Origin: Paracoccaceae bacterium
Lineage (GTDB): Bacteria > Pseudomonadota > Alphaproteobacteria > Rhodobacterales > Rhodobacteraceae
DNA length: 64,000 bases
NCBI GenBank assembly: GCA_014359745.1
Contig: JACIYW010000001.1
Location: forward strand, 1 to 64,000
Direction of reading: 5' to 3'
The position numbers and the translations under genes are program-made. The notes under the pieces were generated by a model that worked only from the letters and a program-made list of their open reading frames with translations, was not told the DNA's origin and made no database searches. The stretch's first letter is position 1. Each line of letters opens with the position of its first letter. Shown piece by piece: positions 45,654-53,107 of the stretch.

Positions 45654-48527
45654 ATGGCCTTTGCCGAACTCTCTGCCACCTCGAACTTCAGCTTCCTTAC
45701 GGGGGCGTCGCACCCCGAGGAATATATGCTTCGGGCGGCTGAACTTGGCCTGTCTGCGGTCGCCATCGCCGATGAAAACTCCGTCGCCGGTCTCGTGCGC
45801 GCCCATGCCGAGGCGCGCAGGCTGGCGCGCGAATGCCCCGAGGCGCGCAGGCTGGCGCGCGAATGCCCCGAGGCGCCACGCCTGATCCCGGCGGCGAAAC
45901 TGCGGCTGACCCTGCCTGCGGCGCCCGCATCCGCCCCGATGGGCGATCTTGTCGTCACCGCCCTGCCGCGCGACCGCGCCGCCTGGGGTCGGCTGTGCCG
46001 TCTTCTGTCGATCGGGCGGCAACGCGCGCCAAAGGGTGACTGCCTGCTGACCCCTGACGATCTGCATGACTGGGGCGCGGGGCTTGATCTGTTGCTGCAT
46101 CCGCCACCACGGGTGCCAACGATGCCCGGCGGCGCGGGGGTGTGGCAAACACAGGCAGAGCGGCTGTCGCGCCGCTTTGCCGGGCAGGTCGCGCTGCTGA
46201 TCGCCCCCCGCTATGACGGGGGGGATGGCGCGCGCTTTGCCCGCCTGTCCCGTCTGGCCGGGGGGCTTGGCCTGCCCACCGTCGCCTCTGCCGCGCCGAT
46301 CCTGCACCACGGATCGCGCCGGGCGCTGGCCGATGTGCTGACCGCGATCCGAACCGGCACCCGGGTCGATGATCTGGGTAGGGCGGCGCTGGCCAATGCC
46401 GAACAGCGCCTGCGCTCCGAGGCCGAGATGCGGCAGCTTTTCGCCGATCATCCCGGCGCGGTGGATCGCGCGGGCGACCTTGCCGCGCGGCTGACCTTCT
46501 CGCTCGATGACTTGCGCTATGACTACCCGGCCGAGGTGGCGGCGGGCGAGGCCCCGGATGCCCGGCTGGCCCGTCTGGCCCGCGCGGGGCTGGCGGATCG
46601 CTATCCGGGGGGCGCGCCCGACCGGGTGCGCGCGATGATGGCGCATGAACTGGCGCTGATCGCCAAGCTGAATTACGCGCCCTATTTCCTGACGGTCCGC
46701 GATATCGTGGCCTTCGCCCGCGATCGCGGCATCCTTTGTCAGGGGCGCGGTTCGGCGGCCAATTCGGTGGTGTGCTATGCGCTGGGCGTCACCTCGGTCT
46801 CGCCCGAGGTGGGCACGATGGTGTTTGAACGTTTCGTCTCCGAGGCCCGCGATGAACCCCCCGATATCGATGTCGATTTCGAACATGAACGCCGCGAAGA
46901 GGTGATCCAGCACATCTATGCGAAATACGGCCGCCACCGCGCGGGGCTTTGCGCCACGGTCATCCATTACCGGGGCAAACGCGCGGTGCGCGAGGTGGGC
47001 CGCGCCATGGGCCTGTCCGACGATACGCTGTCGGCGCTGTCCAGCCAGATCTGGGGCTGGGGCAGCCTGAAAGGCACCGAGGCCGCGCGCCTGCGCGAGA
47101 TCGGGCTTGATCCCGCCGACCGGCGCCTGGCGCTGACCCTGCGGATGATCGCCCAGATACAGGGCTTCCCCCGCCACCTGTCGCAACATGTCGGCGGCTT
47201 CGTGATCACCGAGGGGCGGCTTGATGAACTCGCCCCGGTCGAGAACGCCACGATGGACGGGCGCACCGTCATTCCCTGGGACAAGGACGATCTGGATACG
47301 CTGGGCATCCTCAAGATCGACATCCTGGCGCTGGGCATGCTGACCTGCATCCGCAAGGCCTTCGATCTTCTGGCCCGCCACCACGGCGTCACCCACAGCC
47401 TCGCCAGCCTGCCGCCCGAAGATCCGGCCACCTATGACATGCTTGGCCGGGCCGACAGCCTGGGGGTGTTTCAGGTCGAAAGCCGCGCGCAGATGAATTT
47501 CCTGCCCCGGATGCGGCCGCGCAGCTTCTACGATCTGGTCATTCAGGTCGCCATCATCCGCCCCGGCCCGATTCAGGGCGACATGGTGCACCCCTATATC
47601 CGGCGCCGCAACGGCGAAGAGGCGGTCAGCTTCCCCTCGGATGCCCTTGGCGCGGTGCTGGGCAAGACGCTGGGCGTGCCGCTGTTTCAGGAACAGGCGA
47701 TGCAGATCGCCATCATCGGTGCCGGTTTCACCCCCGACGAGGCCGATCAGTTGCGCCGGTCGCTGGCCACCTTCAAGAAACACGGCCGGGTGTCCGAACT
47801 GCGCGACCGCTTCCTGTCGGGCATGGCCGCCAACGGTTATCCCGCCGATTTCGCCGACCGTTGCTTTGCCCAGATCGAAGGGTTCGGCGCCTACGGCTTT
47901 CCCGAAAGCCACGCGGCAAGTTTCGCGCATCTGGTCTATGCCTCTGCCTGGCTGAAGCGGCACCACCCCGGCATTTTCGCCTGCGCGCTTCTGAATGCGC
48001 AGCCGATGGGCTTCTATGCGCCCGCGCAGATCGTGCGCGATGCGCGCGAACACGGGGTCGTGGTGCGCGCCCCCTGCATCAACGCCAGCCATTGGGACAA
48101 TGTGATGGAACCTGACGGGCAGGGCGGGCTGGCGCTGCGGCTGGGGTTTCGCCAGATCCGCGGCATGGCCCGGGAAGATGCCGACTGGATCGTGGCCGCG
48201 CGCGGCAATGGCTATCTTTCGGTTGGCGATGTCTGGCGGCGCGCGGGGCTGGCGCCCGCGCGGCTGGTGATGCTGGCCGAGGCTGACGTTTTCGCCACGC
48301 TTGGCCTTGCGCGGCGCGATGCGCTCTGGCAGGCGCGGGGGCTTGGCGCGCCCAGAACCCTGCCGCTTTTCGCCCGCGACATCGACGGCGAGGTGATCGA
48401 TGAACCCGCCGTCACCCTGCCCGCGATGACTGAGGGCGAGGCGGTGATCGAGGATTACGCCGCCCTGCACCTGACCCTGCGCCGCCACCCGATGGCGTTT
48501 CTGCGCGCACGGCTTTCGCAGGGGTAA
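45654..48527 (+). CDS. dnaE2: Error-prone DNA polymerase DnaE2, C-terminally truncated
   Basis: The 957-residue polymerase has a PHP domain (1-230, SNFSFLTGASHPEEYMLRAA), the catalytic acids in PPDIDVDFEHERREEV near 402 and DILKIDILALGM-like LGILKIDILALGML near 550, and HVGGFVIT near 513. DnaE2 copies past DNA lesions with ImuA/ImuB. The protein ends FLRARLSQG, where homologues continue for 100 or more residues with an OB-fold; that part is missing. It also holds a 10-residue duplication near 53-72. ImuA/ImuB genes are not adjacent. Activity is doubtful. Confidence 0.85.
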   Translation: MAFAELSATSNFSFLTGASHPEEYMLRAAELGLSAVAIADENSVAGLVRAHAEARRLARECPEARRLARECPEAPRLIPAAKLRLTLPAAPASAPMGDLVVTALPRDRAAWGRLCRLLSIGRQRAPKGDCLLTPDDLHDWGAGLDLLLHPPPRVPTMPGGAGVWQTQAERLSRRFAGQVALLIAPRYDGGDGARFARLSRLAGGLGLPTVASAAPILHHGSRRALADVLTAIRTGTRVDDLGRAALANAEQRLRSEAEMRQLFADHPGAVDRAGDLAARLTFSLDDLRYDYPAEVAAGEAPDARLARLARAGLADRYPGGAPDRVRAMMAHELALIAKLNYAPYFLTVRDIVAFARDRGILCQGRGSAANSVVCYALGVTSVSPEVGTMVFERFVSEARDEPPDIDVDFEHERREEVIQHIYAKYGRHRAGLCATVIHYRGKRAVREVGRAMGLSDDTLSALSSQIWGWGSLKGTEAARLREIGLDPADRRLALTLRMIAQIQGFPRHLSQHVGGFVITEGRLDELAPVENATMDGRTVIPWDKDDLDTLGILKIDILALGMLTCIRKAFDLLARHHGVTHSLASLPPEDPATYDMLGRADSLGVFQVESRAQMNFLPRMRPRSFYDLVIQVAIIRPGPIQGDMVHPYIRRRNGEEAVSFPSDALGAVLGKTLGVPLFQEQAMQIAIIGAGFTPDEADQLRRSLATFKKHGRVSELRDRFLSGMAANGYPADFADRCFAQIEGFGAYGFPESHAASFAHLVYASAWLKRHHPGIFACALLNAQPMGFYAPAQIVRDAREHGVVVRAPCINASHWDNVMEPDGQGGLALRLGFRQIRGMAREDADWIVAARGNGYLSVGDVWRRAGLAPARLVMLAEADVFATLGLARRDALWQARGLGAPRTLPLFARDIDGEVIDEPAVTLPAMTEGEAVIEDYAALHLTLRRHPMAFLRARLSQG
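45810..45869 (+). repeat. Exact 30-bp tandem duplication in dnaE2
   Basis: The 30-bp unit at 45810-45839 is repeated without change at 45840-45869. It encodes EARRLARECP twice in the PHP domain. The lack of any difference points to a recent event. Confidence 0.95.
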
Positions 48528-49054: not shown

Positions 49055-50317
49055 ATGAGACAAAATCAGAAAAAAACGCTGGGCCTGGTTGGCGCCGCGC
49101 TGCTGAGCACTGCGATGACCGCGCCCGCGCTGCACGCGCAATCGGCCGATCAGCTTCGTTCGCAAGTCTTCGCGCTGGAACAGCGCCTCAGCGCGCTGGA
49201 AAAACAGGGCGGCGTCAAGGTTCCCAGCGGAACCACGCTGCAATTCGGCGGCTATGTCAAACTCGACTTCATCTACGACATGGATCAGGCCCACGGCGAT
49301 TTGCTTGACGCTTCCAGCATCGGCGTTGGCCCCGGCAACTCGCAAGACGGCGGTTTTCGCGCAATCGCGCGTCAGTCGCGTTTCAACCTCCGGTCCACCA
49401 CGCAAACCGCCAACGGCCCGGTTGTCGCCTTCCTGGAATTCGATTTTTCGACCAATACCGGCAACGAAATCATATCGAACTCGACCAGCCCGCGTATGCG
49501 CCATGCATACGGCGAATGGAACGGGATCCTGGCTGGTCAGACCTGGTCAAACTTCATGCCCATTGCCTTTATCGCCGACACGGTTGACTTCGGTGGCCCG
49601 GTCGCCAAGACCTTTATCCGTCAGGCGCAGTTGCGCTATACCTTCCCGGAAAACAACGGCGTGAAGCTTGCGATGTCGTTGGAAAACGCTGAATTCACCG
49701 GTCGGATCGAAACCGCGCCCGGTGTATTCACGGGGCAGCGTTCGTACTCGACCACGGGAAACACCAATGGCCTGACCGCAGAAATCGATGACATGCCCGA
49801 TTTCACCATCACCGCCGATTGGACCAATGGCGTGCAGCGCGCCCGCGTTGGCGGTCTTTTGCGTCACCTGAACGCGCCGAACGGCGGCGATGACGCCATC
49901 GGTTACGGTGTGAACTTTGCCTTGGCGTCGCCGCTTTGGGCCGGGGCAACCATCTCTGGTATGGCAACCTATGGTGACGGTATCGGCCGCTATATGGTGA
50001 ACGGTGTTGGCCAGGATGCCGTGGTAGATTTGGCCGGCAACCTGCACACGATCCAGGCATGGGGCGCCCAGGCGCAGGTCATGCAGGCCCTTACCGACAC
50101 AGTTTCGGCGGGGGTCGCCTATAGTTACTACCAGATCGAAGACACCTATATGGCCACCGACACCGACAACGTCCAGGCGGTGCACGCAACGTTGTACTAT
50201 AAACCGAACAGCAAGGTCCGGTTTGGTGCGGAATTCATCTGGGCCCAGCGTGAGCTGGCCAACAATGCCTCAGACAGCATTTCCCGTCTGCAAGGTTCGG
50301 TTCAGTTCAACTTCTGA
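49055..50317 (+). CDS. DcaP-like trimeric outer-membrane porin
   Basis: The 420-residue protein has a signal peptide (LGLVGAALLSTAMTAPALHA), a short coiled coil (DQLRSQVFALEQRLSALEKQ near 30-50), then a beta-barrel starting LQFGGYVKLDFIYDMDQAHG and ending in Phe (LQGSVQFNF), the usual barrel end. This is the DcaP family, which admits small acids and drugs. GTAGGAG precedes the ATG. A strong hairpin follows. It is likely an abundant surface protein. Confidence 0.9.
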   Translation: MRQNQKKTLGLVGAALLSTAMTAPALHAQSADQLRSQVFALEQRLSALEKQGGVKVPSGTTLQFGGYVKLDFIYDMDQAHGDLLDASSIGVGPGNSQDGGFRAIARQSRFNLRSTTQTANGPVVAFLEFDFSTNTGNEIISNSTSPRMRHAYGEWNGILAGQTWSNFMPIAFIADTVDFGGPVAKTFIRQAQLRYTFPENNGVKLAMSLENAEFTGRIETAPGVFTGQRSYSTTGNTNGLTAEIDDMPDFTITADWTNGVQRARVGGLLRHLNAPNGGDDAIGYGVNFALASPLWAGATISGMATYGDGIGRYMVNGVGQDAVVDLAGNLHTIQAWGAQAQVMQALTDTVSAGVAYSYYQIEDTYMATDTDNVQAVHATLYYKPNSKVRFGAEFIWAQRELANNASDSISRLQGSVQFNF

Positions 50318-50335
50318 TCCGATCATCAAAAATGA

Positions 50336-50366
50336 TGAAAGGGGCCGGTTTTCCGGCCCCTTTTCA
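50336..50366 (+). terminator. Rho-independent terminator of the porin gene
   Basis: GAAAGGGGCCGG, loop TTTT, CCGGCCCCTTTTC. It starts about 20 bases after the porin stop and ends in a T-tract. It can also serve the opposite strand. Confidence 0.88.
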
Positions 50367-50385
50367 TTTGCGCGACGCTCAGGTG

Positions 50386-50775
50386 TCAGGTGTCGCCGTC
50401 CCATGCGCCGGTGTCGTCAAACACCTCTGGCAAGTAGCGGCGGCATTTTTGCAGATCAAGGCGCAGCAGCGCGTCATAGCTTTGCGGATCAAAGGGGTCT
50501 TCGGCGGGAACAACCTCGCGCCCAAAAAACCATGACAGGCGGCCCGCATCCAGATTGCCGCGTTCAAAGGGCTGATCGCCGAAATGTTCCCAAAGCGCGG
50601 TCAGAAACGCCTCGTCGGCGCGGCGATCGGGGGGGCGGCGGTCGGGGAAGCGTTCGCGCGAAATCAGTTTGCTGGCGCCGTCTTTTGCGGCGCGACGGAT
50701 CACGAACTGAAAATCCGTGCCCGCAAGGCGGCCGGGAAATCCTCGGTGCTTTATCATCTTGTCCTGCCAGTGCAT
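50386..50775 (-). CDS. Conserved protein of unknown function
   Basis: The 129-residue protein is rich in Asp, Arg and aromatic residues, with SRERFPDRRPPDRRADEAFL near 39 and LSWFFGREVVPAEDPFDP near 80. No signal or membrane segment is visible. Codon use is like the local genes, so it is probably real. The family was not recognised. ATG at 50775 follows AGGA; an in-frame ATG lies at 50757. Confidence 0.55.
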   Translation of the reverse strand: MHWQDKMIKHRGFPGRLAGTDFQFVIRRAAKDGASKLISRERFPDRRPPDRRADEAFLTALWEHFGDQPFERGNLDAGRLSWFFGREVVPAEDPFDPQSYDALLRLDLQKCRRYLPEVFDDTGAWDGDT

Positions 50776-50950
50776 TTCCTGCCCGGCGCAGAACCGGTCA
50801 GGCGCAAATCCGGTCAGGCGAATGGGAAATGGGGGTTATCGGCATAAGGCGCATCGCGCGCTTTGCCGCATATCCGTAAAACCACGGTTGCCCGCCATTT
50901 CAGCGGATAACCGGATGTACGGGGCGGGCAGCGCCCGCCCCGACGATGTT

Positions 50951-51025
50951 CGAAATTTCCGGGCTCGAAATTTCCGGGCTCGAAATTTCCGGGCCCAGTA
51001 TTTCCGGACTCAGTATTTCTGCGTT
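50951..51025 (-). repeat. Five 15-bp units running out of a lipoprotein stop codon
   Basis: On the plus strand the units are CGAAATTTCCGGGCT twice, CGAAATTTCCGGGCC, CAGTATTTCCGGACT and CAGTATTTCTGCGTT. The last unit is the 3' end of the lipoprotein gene with its stop. The others extend past it, and the stop triplet has changed to TGG or CGA in them. Confidence 0.88.
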
Positions 51026-51141
51026 ACCGGCTCGGGCGCTACCGGGGTTTCAACGTAAACCACTTCTTTTTCTTTCGGTGCACAGCCGGCCACGATACCC
51101 AGCAAACACACAGCGAACAGGGCTTTTGCGCCTTTTGACAT
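51010..51141 (-). CDS. Small lipoprotein, 43 residues
   Basis: The sequence starts MSKGAKALFAVCLLGIVAGC, a lipoprotein signal with lipobox IVAGC (lipidated Cys at 20). The mature part has 24 residues, APKEKEVVYVETPVAPEPV and a short tail, all charged or Pro-rich. GGAG lies seven bases before the ATG. Similar tiny lipoproteins occur in many Rhodobacterales. It is downstream of pccB on the same strand after 214 bases. The role is unknown, perhaps an envelope spacer. Confidence 0.8.
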   Translation of the reverse strand: MSKGAKALFAVCLLGIVAGCAPKEKEVVYVETPVAPEPVTQKY

Positions 51142-51313
51142 CCTCGTCTCCTACTTCTGTTTCAGTGCCGAATGGGAACGACCCGGCAATTCGGCCTATA
51201 TTACGTTTGTGGCCGCAACATGCCGCCACCACCTATCATAGAGCATTGTTTTGCAATTGCATATCGTCTGTTATTGCCCTGCAGAAAGATATTGACGGCT
51301 GTTGTTTTCATGA

Positions 51314-51342
51314 CGGGCGCGCGGGCCACGCCCCCGCGCGCC
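51314..51342. terminator. GC-rich inverted repeat after pccB
   Basis: GGGCGCGCGGG (51314-51324) pairs with CCCGCGCGCCC (51332-51342) around a 7-base loop. It lies 14 bases past the pccB stop. No T-tract follows, so it may slow rather than end transcription. Confidence 0.45.
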
Positions 51343-51355
51343 CCGCGCCTGTCCG

Positions 51356-52888
51356 TCAAAGCGGGATATTATCGTGTTTTTTCCACGGATTTGTCAGCTT
51401 TTTTCCGCGCAATGACGCAAAGGCGCGGCACACACGTTTGCGGGTTGACCGGGGCTGGATCACCTCGTCGACAAAGCCCTTTTCGGCCGCGACGAACGGG
51501 TTGGCAAAGCGGTTTTCATAATCTCTGGTACGCGCCGCGATCTTGTCGGGATCGCCCAGTTCCGAACGATACAGGATCTCCACCGCGCCCTTGGCGCCCA
51601 TCACCGCAATCTCGGCGGTGGGCCAGGCATAGTTGAAATCGCCGCGCAGATGTTTCGACGCCATCACGTCATAGGCCCCGCCATAGGCCTTGCGGGTGAT
51701 CACCGTCACCTTGGGCACCGTCGCCTCGCCGTAAGCAAACAACAGCTTCGCGCCATGCTTGATCACGCCGCCATATTCCTGCCCGGTGCCGGGCAGAAAG
51801 CCGGGCACATCCACCAGCGTCAGGATCGGAATTTCGAACGCATCGCAAAACCGCACGAACCGCGCCGCCTTGCGCGACGAATCAATATCCAGGCATCCGG
51901 CCAGCACCATCGGCTGATTGGCCACCACCCCCACCGTCGATCCTTCCAGCCGGATGAAACCGGTCAGGATGTTGCGGGCGAAATCCTGTTGCAGCTCATA
52001 AAAATCGCTTTCATCCGCGATCTTCAGGATCAGTTCGCGCATGTCATAGGGTTGGTTGGGGTTGGCCGGGATCAGGGTGTCAAGGCTGGGCTCGATCCGG
52101 TCGGGCGTGTCGAAGAACGGCCGCACCGGCGGCTTTTCACGATTGGAAAGCGGCAGGAAATCGATCAGGCGGCGCACCTCCATCAGCGCCTCCATGTCGT
52201 CTTCAAACGCGCCGTCGGCGACAGAGGATTTGGTGGTGTGGGTTTTCGCCCCGCCCAGTTCCTCGGCGGTGACCACCTCGTTGGTGACGGTTTTCACCAC
52301 ATCGGGGCCGGTGACGAACATGTAAGAGGTATCGCGCACCATGAAGATGAAATCGGTCATCGCCGGGGAATAAACCGCGCCGCCCGCACAAGGCCCCATG
52401 ATCAGGGAAATCTGCGGCACCACGCCCGAGGCCATGATGTTGCGCTGGAACACATCGGCATAGCCCGCAAGGGATGCCACGCCTTCCTGAATGCGCGCGC
52501 CGCCCGAATCGTTGATCCCGATCACCGGCGCGCCGTTCTGCATGGCCATATCCATGATCTTGCAGATCTTGGCCGCGTGGGTTTCCGAAAGCGACCCGCC
52601 GAACACCGTGAAATCCTGGCTGAACACATAGATCATCCGGCCGTTGACCGTGCCCCATCCGGTGACAACCCCGTCGCCATAGGGGCGGCTGGCCTCCATC
52701 CCGAAATCGGTGCAGCGATGCGCCACGAACATGTCAAATTCTTCAAAACTGCCCTCGTCCAGCAGCAGGTCGATGCGTTCGCGCGCGGTCAGCTTTCCCT
52801 TGGCGTGCTGCCCGTCGATACGCGCCTGGCCACCGCCAAGCCGGGCGCTGGCCCGGCGATCCTCAAGTTCCTGCAAGATGTCCTTCAT
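51356..52888 (-). CDS. pccB: Propionyl-CoA carboxylase, beta subunit
   Basis: The 510-residue carboxyltransferase has [20 protein letters not shown] near 30, [20 protein letters not shown] near 128, [20 protein letters not shown] near 160, and the C-terminal [20 protein letters not shown] near 391. It moves CO2 from biotin to propionyl-CoA, giving methylmalonyl-CoA. GGAGGG precedes the ATG. The alpha subunit and mutase are not adjacent. In related genomes pccB and pccA lie a few genes apart. Confidence 0.93.
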
Positions 52889-53107
52889 TGATCCCTCCGA
52901 TATTTGCGCCAGCTTATCTTGCCCGATCGCCGGGTGCGAGGGATTTTCGCAGGACGCACAAGGGGCTGGGGGCCAAAGCGGCCACGAAACAGCGAAATCA
53001 TGCACTCCTGACCCATGTTGACAAGCACGACAAAAAAAGTAAGAAATAGCTGTTCCCAGCCAGCCCACCCCGGCAGCCCGGACCTTTCAGAAAAGAAGGG
53101 AGACCAA

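Follow-up and report, generated by a model that had tools for sequence, protein, structure and literature searches.

Behind the stop codon of a small lipoprotein gene, the window (the whole 64,000-nucleotide stretch of DNA that we analysed) carries a 15-bp tandem array whose last unit is the 3′ end of the gene itself. The locus raises the question of how such an array arose and whether it does anything: it could be a nursery for a C-terminal extension of the lipoprotein, as an earlier note on this DNA had proposed, it could act at the level of RNA, or it could be a by-product of local duplication. To the last of these, namely that the array is a young, lineage-private minisatellite made from the lipoprotein gene end, untranslated and probably neutral, we give a probability of roughly three in four.

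Layout of the locus

The lipoprotein gene, which we call LP1, lies on the minus strand at 51010..51141 and encodes 43 amino acids with a signal peptide, the lipobox VAGC with its cysteine, and a C-terminal K-Y motif, the gene ending as TQKY followed by TGA. Upstream of it on the same strand is a pccB-like carboxyl transferase gene (51356..53068; PF01039, E 6.4e-200), whose conserved part runs from about 52891, matches in relatives mostly beginning near residue 60. By coordinates, LP1 lies near pccB in this genome and in some relatives (e.g., G036, G010, and G022), a proximity noted for such examples rather than counted over the set. The next gene downstream (50386..50775, minus strand) has 129 amino acids as listed (123-129 codons), with a conserved start, MIKHRGFPGR, at 50757, and its closest named relatives are from Rhodobacteraceae, for example Rhodovulum and Ruegeria. 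Neither LP1 nor the next gene nor the product of reading through the LP1 stop matched a known family in Pfam or NCBIfam; LP1 orthologs and the extended relatives described below gave weak matches only in the same two databases. No paper on LP1 or on the array was found among the literature matches listed.

The spacer between LP1 and the next gene is 252 nt long here, compared with a median of 75 nt in relatives (distances available for 161 of 177 rows). A second tandem duplication, imperfect, with a period of 16 and 2.2 copies according to TRF, occupies 50785..50820 (minus strand) of the same spacer, directly upstream of the next gene; it fails the rule for near-exact duplications used for the genome counts below. 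The next gene is followed in the window (49055-50757) by a convergent porin-like gene of the DcaP family. Named relatives differ: 73 of 80 have a biotin-carboxylase motif downstream of the next gene, on the same strand, instead of the porin-like gene. This motif was searched for in the window and not found; biotin-carboxylase matches lie on five other contigs of this genome.

Structure of the array

The array proper consists of four 15-bp units beyond the LP1 TGA (50950-51009, minus strand). It abuts a gene-end unit, ACGCAGAAATACTGA (51010..51024, minus strand), which comprises the last 12 coding bases of LP1 plus TGA and is the likely founder. The gene-end unit is identical at 10 of 15 positions to unit 1 beyond the stop, GTCCGGAAATACTGG (50995..51009, minus strand), and units 2-4 (50950..50994, minus strand) are three identical copies of GCCCGGAAATTTCGA, each containing the palindrome GAAATTTC. 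TRF returned units 2-4 as 3.0 copies with 100% matches and a score of 90, and the best self-match score of the array region was 68, compared with a best of 25 in 500 dinucleotide shuffles. The sequence, TRF, and the shuffles thus agree with the earlier note that the array is real, that its last unit is the LP1 3′ end including TGA, and that four units lie beyond; they also agree that the stop triplet is replaced in the outer units, by TGG once and by CGA three times. The feature had been placed at 50951-51141, of which the upper bound is the LP1 gene start and the lower bound is one base off, the array starting at 50950. Read in frame, the four units give VRKYW ARKFR ARKFR ARKFR.

The copies run head to tail, the unit falls within the approximate range of 10-100 bp, and the array is intergenic, between the LP1 stop and the next gene, all of which are features of a minisatellite. 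MIRUs, as defined in the portions of PMC2734929 available to us, are related copies dispersed at many loci. The array does not fit that description, since searching the 2.93-Mb draft genome with a two-unit pattern at up to three mismatches gave no second locus. A search for sigma-70 promoters and intrinsic terminators listed no site at the array.

The array might instead be coding on the plus strand, where a 191-codon frame (50946-51521) is open and would read the units as EISGL-type repeats. We find this scarcely credible: the frame runs antisense to a conserved gene and has no Pfam or NCBIfam match, and the window holds many long, overlapping chance frames.

Probable origin from the gene end

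We next set the gene end against those of relatives. Searching with the single LP1 sequence gave matches in 204 of 295 family genomes (E<=1), and a profile search gave matches in 214 of 295 (E<=0.01), the weak ones in either case possibly being other lipoproteins. The stronger of the matches listed by the single-sequence search were followed up, so that weakly similar orthologs are under-sampled, and the best match per locus at 14 bits or more was kept, with repeated sequences dropped; the weaker-match loci left out include several Ruegeria and Planktomarina loci where LP1 was not found. The resulting set holds 177 distinct gene ends, 175 with a complete stop and two cut by the end of the stretch.

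Comparing the last 15 bases of LP1 with the following 15 across 175 gene ends, of which this is one, gave a mean of 3.5 matches; this locus has 10, and the other 174 reach at most 7. The array therefore probably grew from the LP1 gene end, and the earlier proposal that it grew out of the lipoprotein 3′ end holds up. The array is local and absent from the other gene ends: it is present in 1 of 177, that of this genome. Looking for a tandem score of at least 30 in the gene end and in up to 300 nt of spacer, we found 2 of 177 cases, this locus and L102, whose 12-bp array is unrelated to the 15-bp array here. TRF adds one further 15-bp pair, a weak one, in the spacer behind LP1 in L309, with a score of 48 (below 30 by the ungapped score). 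The LP1 end of ortholog L066, GGCCAGAAATACTGA, shares 12 of 15 positions with unit 1; by this comparison, the founder resembles the usual gene end of the LP1 family. Growth away from the stop, which would give the order of the duplication events, fits the pattern of one divergent inner unit and three identical outer ones.

The reading frame beyond the stop

According to the earlier note, a single change of the stop codon would append the repeats to the protein. This is correct as a reading of the frame, in which the next in-frame stop after the LP1 TGA lies 57 codons on (50836..50838, minus strand); loss of the TGA would thus add 57 residues to LP1, repeats first. Such an open frame is ordinary: within the 400 nt read, the frame behind the stop is open for at least 57 codons at 107 of 171 gene ends, among them this one with its value of 57. 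Three codons differ between unit 1 and units 2-4 when compared by eye, and every difference changes the amino acid, the pattern to be expected where DNA is non-coding. Since the native TGA is kept, the array is presumably untranslated.

LP1 is widespread in the family, and its C-terminus hardly varies. It ends in K[YFLMV] plus at most three residues in 170 of the 175 complete orthologs (the exceptions being L074, L077, L142, L143, and L194), and the ends GKYGGKY and GKYGSKY of L140 and L226 are short in-frame doublings of the KY end. A search for read-through forms among the relatives found no LP1 with a repeat tail in the 175 complete orthologs, and this genome keeps its TGA. The proposal that the array is a route to extension already in use was thus not borne out, given the absence of repeat tails (0 of 175), the nearly fixed C-terminus, the non-synonymous changes between units, and the commonness of open frames.

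The recruitment of 3′ sequence by stop loss is documented in yeast and fly (PMC4494051), and the portions of that paper available to us cite 13 bacterial stop-loss cases (Vakhrusheva et al., 2011). Going by these portions, our locus resembles the yeast and fly cases in that a non-coding 3′ open frame could be taken up by stop loss, and it differs from them in that LP1 keeps its stop codon, with no extended allele known.

Extended lipoproteins beside LP1

The next gene is at least 200 nt away or was not found in 34 of the 177 rows (the window and the two cut-off stretches included), and some of these rows have a second small lipoprotein gene behind LP1. Some second lipoproteins are simple copies that stop at the KY motif or close to it (L058, L059, L091, L100, L110, L114, L117, and L159), and others extend beyond it with a cysteine-containing stretch and then a low-complexity tail. 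Second lipoproteins reaching beyond KY were seen in L015, L090, L124, L127, L141, L305-L314, and L316, often with N/Q/G/T-rich tandem-repeat tails. Relatives of the extended lipoprotein also occur at loci away from LP1.

LP1 and the extended family matched over 38 profile columns with a probability of 97.8 and an E of 8.7e-13, values that the shared signal peptide may inflate. With the profile of the extended form, 94 of 295 genomes gave a match at E<=0.001, many of these places being LP1 itself; in this genome no match to the extended family was found at that threshold (15 of 41 first-look candidates scored). LP1 lies within 700 nt upstream of the extended gene at 16 of 35 loci, or 13 distinct loci after allowing for three pairs with identical proteins, and 8 of these 13 have tandem repeats (TRF score of at least 40) in the 3′ part of the second gene. 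Repeat growth near the C-terminus therefore does take place in lipoproteins of this locus, but in their own frame. LP1 is not directly upstream in 19 of the 30 best extended loci.

We also considered whether the extension arose by read-through of the LP1 spacer and rejected this origin, as similarity to the own spacer (13-29) was not above the cross-genome control (mean 18, maximum 29).

The extended second lipoproteins are a loose precedent for the nursery idea, under which stop loss or leaky termination would add RKYW/RKFRA repeats to LP1. Part of that idea keeps some footing: the frame is open for 57 codons past the TGA, and lipoproteins with repeat tails do adjoin LP1 in some relatives. 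The part that concerns read-through found no sign in the data, with LP1 orthologs ending close to K[YFLMV], extensions no more similar to the spacer than the control, many extended loci lacking LP1 directly upstream, no extended match in this genome, and open frames behind the stop being common. We regard a nursery as highly unlikely and keep to the minisatellite reading.

A stem-loop behind the stop

Beyond the array lies a stem-loop, CGGGGCGGGC-GCT-GCCCGCCCCG (50920..50942, minus strand), the likely counterpart of one that orthologs carry close behind the LP1 stop. We searched for such elements up to 130 nt behind the stop, cutting at the next gene, and used five rounds of dinucleotide shuffles for comparison. 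Of 175 gene ends, 84 have a perfect stem of at least 8 pairs and about half have none; in the shuffles, the mean number of gene ends with such a stem was 6.6. These stems start a median of 9 nt from the stop (quartiles 8-16 nt), 79 of the 84 within 25 nt, a position partly imposed by how short the spacers are in relatives (median 75 nt). Stems of at least 6 pairs occur at 141 of 175 gene ends, with start quartiles of 8-22 nt. Most of the longer stem-loops are unlike classical terminators because just 9 of the 84 have at least 4 T in the next 8 bases. Being usually 8-16 nt from the stop and mostly without a T run, the LP1 stem-loop of the orthologs is a possible translation-coupled 3′ element.

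In this genome, the stem-loop starts 67 nt behind the LP1 stop and would start at 7 nt if the four units were removed (67 = 7 + 60). Set against the 8-16 nt typical of orthologs, this distance makes the array look like an insertion. The array RNA is predicted to form its own stem-loop beginning 3 nt past the stop (-24.3 kcal/mol, z -2.2 in 300 shuffles), which might therefore replace the displaced one. Folding of this kind is expected anyway, since tandem palindromic units pair among themselves.

This fold is the main point in favor of a functional spacer or RNA element, in which the palindromic units fold at the stop and the number of copies adjusts how stable the mRNA is or how strongly the next gene is expressed. 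The frequency of stem-loops near the stop in the family and the long spacer compared with relatives would suit such a role, as would the precedent of the rnc-fpg1 spacer in the Mycobacterium tuberculosis complex. According to the portions of PMC2734929 available to us, that spacer is filled with repeats and is only a few bp long in other mycobacteria; it holds 279-358 bp of complex repeats, its length varies by strain, and longer forms go with higher fpg1 mRNA. As far as these portions allow the comparison, our locus is like the MIRU-VNTR spacer in that tandem repeats fill a spacer in one lineage where that of relatives is short, and it is unlike it in having 15-bp units that are private to one genome and derived from a gene end. 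Weighing against a functional spacer are the automatic pairing of palindromic copies, the modest z, the lack of conservation, and the fact that the usual downstream partner, with its biotin-carboxylase motif, was not found in the window. We consider it unlikely. It is more doubtful again that the stem-loop often held near the LP1 stop is a translation-coupled 3′ element that was rewired here, the array having pushed it 60 nt off and set up a replacement. Under the minisatellite reading, we take neutrality as the default for any effect on mRNA stability or on expression of the next gene.

Short tandem duplications in the genome

Replication slippage gives rise to short tandem duplications in head-to-tail arrangement, and we counted near-exact ones in this genome and in relatives. 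Duplications were scored as +1 per match and -4 per mismatch with a score at least equal to the period, scanned at periods of 9-60 or 12-60, and counted from a period of 12. The own-genome sample (the window, L245-L264, and L285-L304) covers 462 kb of 2.93 Mb (16%) and is non-random, being made up of contigs met earlier in the analysis and the starts of further contigs, where arrays are commoner. It contains 29 duplications, compared with 7 in 884 kb of relatives, an excess whose size is rough because of this sampling and because the relatives are of different genera. Of the 7, one came from 319 kb of 20 relatives and six from 565 kb around the next gene in 80 named species, three of the six being in second-lipoprotein tails. 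Ten of the 29 have a period of 15, and 20 have a period divisible by 3. Restricting the comparison to interior 600-bp bins gave 19 of 631 bins with a duplication here and 7 of 1440 in relatives (Fisher p 8e-6). The excess is smaller for TRF arrays with a score of at least 60 (30 in 343 kb here and 10 in 319 kb of relatives), and there is none at a score of at least 90 (5 here and 6 in relatives, where the strong arrays have longer units). This genome thus seems, on sequence counts, to be rich in short tandem duplications, often of 15 bp.

The array shares with slippage duplications its head-to-tail copies and identical outer units, and its motif is, by eye, not common to the other arrays of this genome. 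What departs from the general case of slippage is how frequent duplications are in this genome and that 10 of 29 have a period of 15. The array appears to be one among many short repeats of its kind in this genome.

Two side observations concern the same genome. At 45808-45876 of the window, an in-frame 30-bp duplication (ARRLARECPE) lies near the start of a 957-codon frame that we take to resemble error-prone DNA polymerase. The gene for the large subunit of exonuclease VII is split over two contig starts (G000:C39:57-869 and G000:C253:9-299), with overlapping profile ranges. Loss of this subunit was considered as a cause of the duplications and set aside, the gene being present, on two contigs.

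An array was found within 250 bp of 6 of 31 contig starts and at 0 of 12 contig ends. The former figure counts in favor of the possibility that the number of units, or the whole array, is an error of short-read assembly, as does the state of the draft, which is in 262 contigs; misassembly may have altered how many identical units are shown. Against an error, the array lies about 20 kb inside a 71.7-kb contig, and the 12 contig ends are free of arrays; nor can the whole array be one collapsed loop, because units 2-4 are not the same as unit 1 or the gene end. We judge such an artefact very improbable, a shade more so than the nursery.

The array as a probable minisatellite

The minisatellite reading takes its starting points from the similarity of the gene end to the array, the identical outer copies, the position between stop and stem-loop, and the absence of the array from the other 176 gene ends. 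The steps that we infer from these, and their order, are as follows. A 15-bp stretch at the LP1 3′ end, stop included, would have been duplicated in tandem; copies past the stop would have been free to change, and the outer ones would then have been copied again. Such an origin would fit the apparent excess of short tandem duplications, often of 15 bp, in the non-random 16% sample of this genome. The likeliest direct effect would be mechanical, a shift of the stem-loop from about 7 to 67 nt, which would put it beyond the reach of a ribosome terminating at the TGA.

The locus offers a clean example of minisatellite origin, in which the founder would be the 3′ end of a gene sequenced in many relatives, and the site of insertion is readable to within a few bases. 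Two side observations may matter more than the array itself. One is the stem-loop that is often kept near the LP1 stop across the family, and the other is a genome that seems exceptionally rich in tandem duplications of about 15 bp and could serve for studying how they arise.
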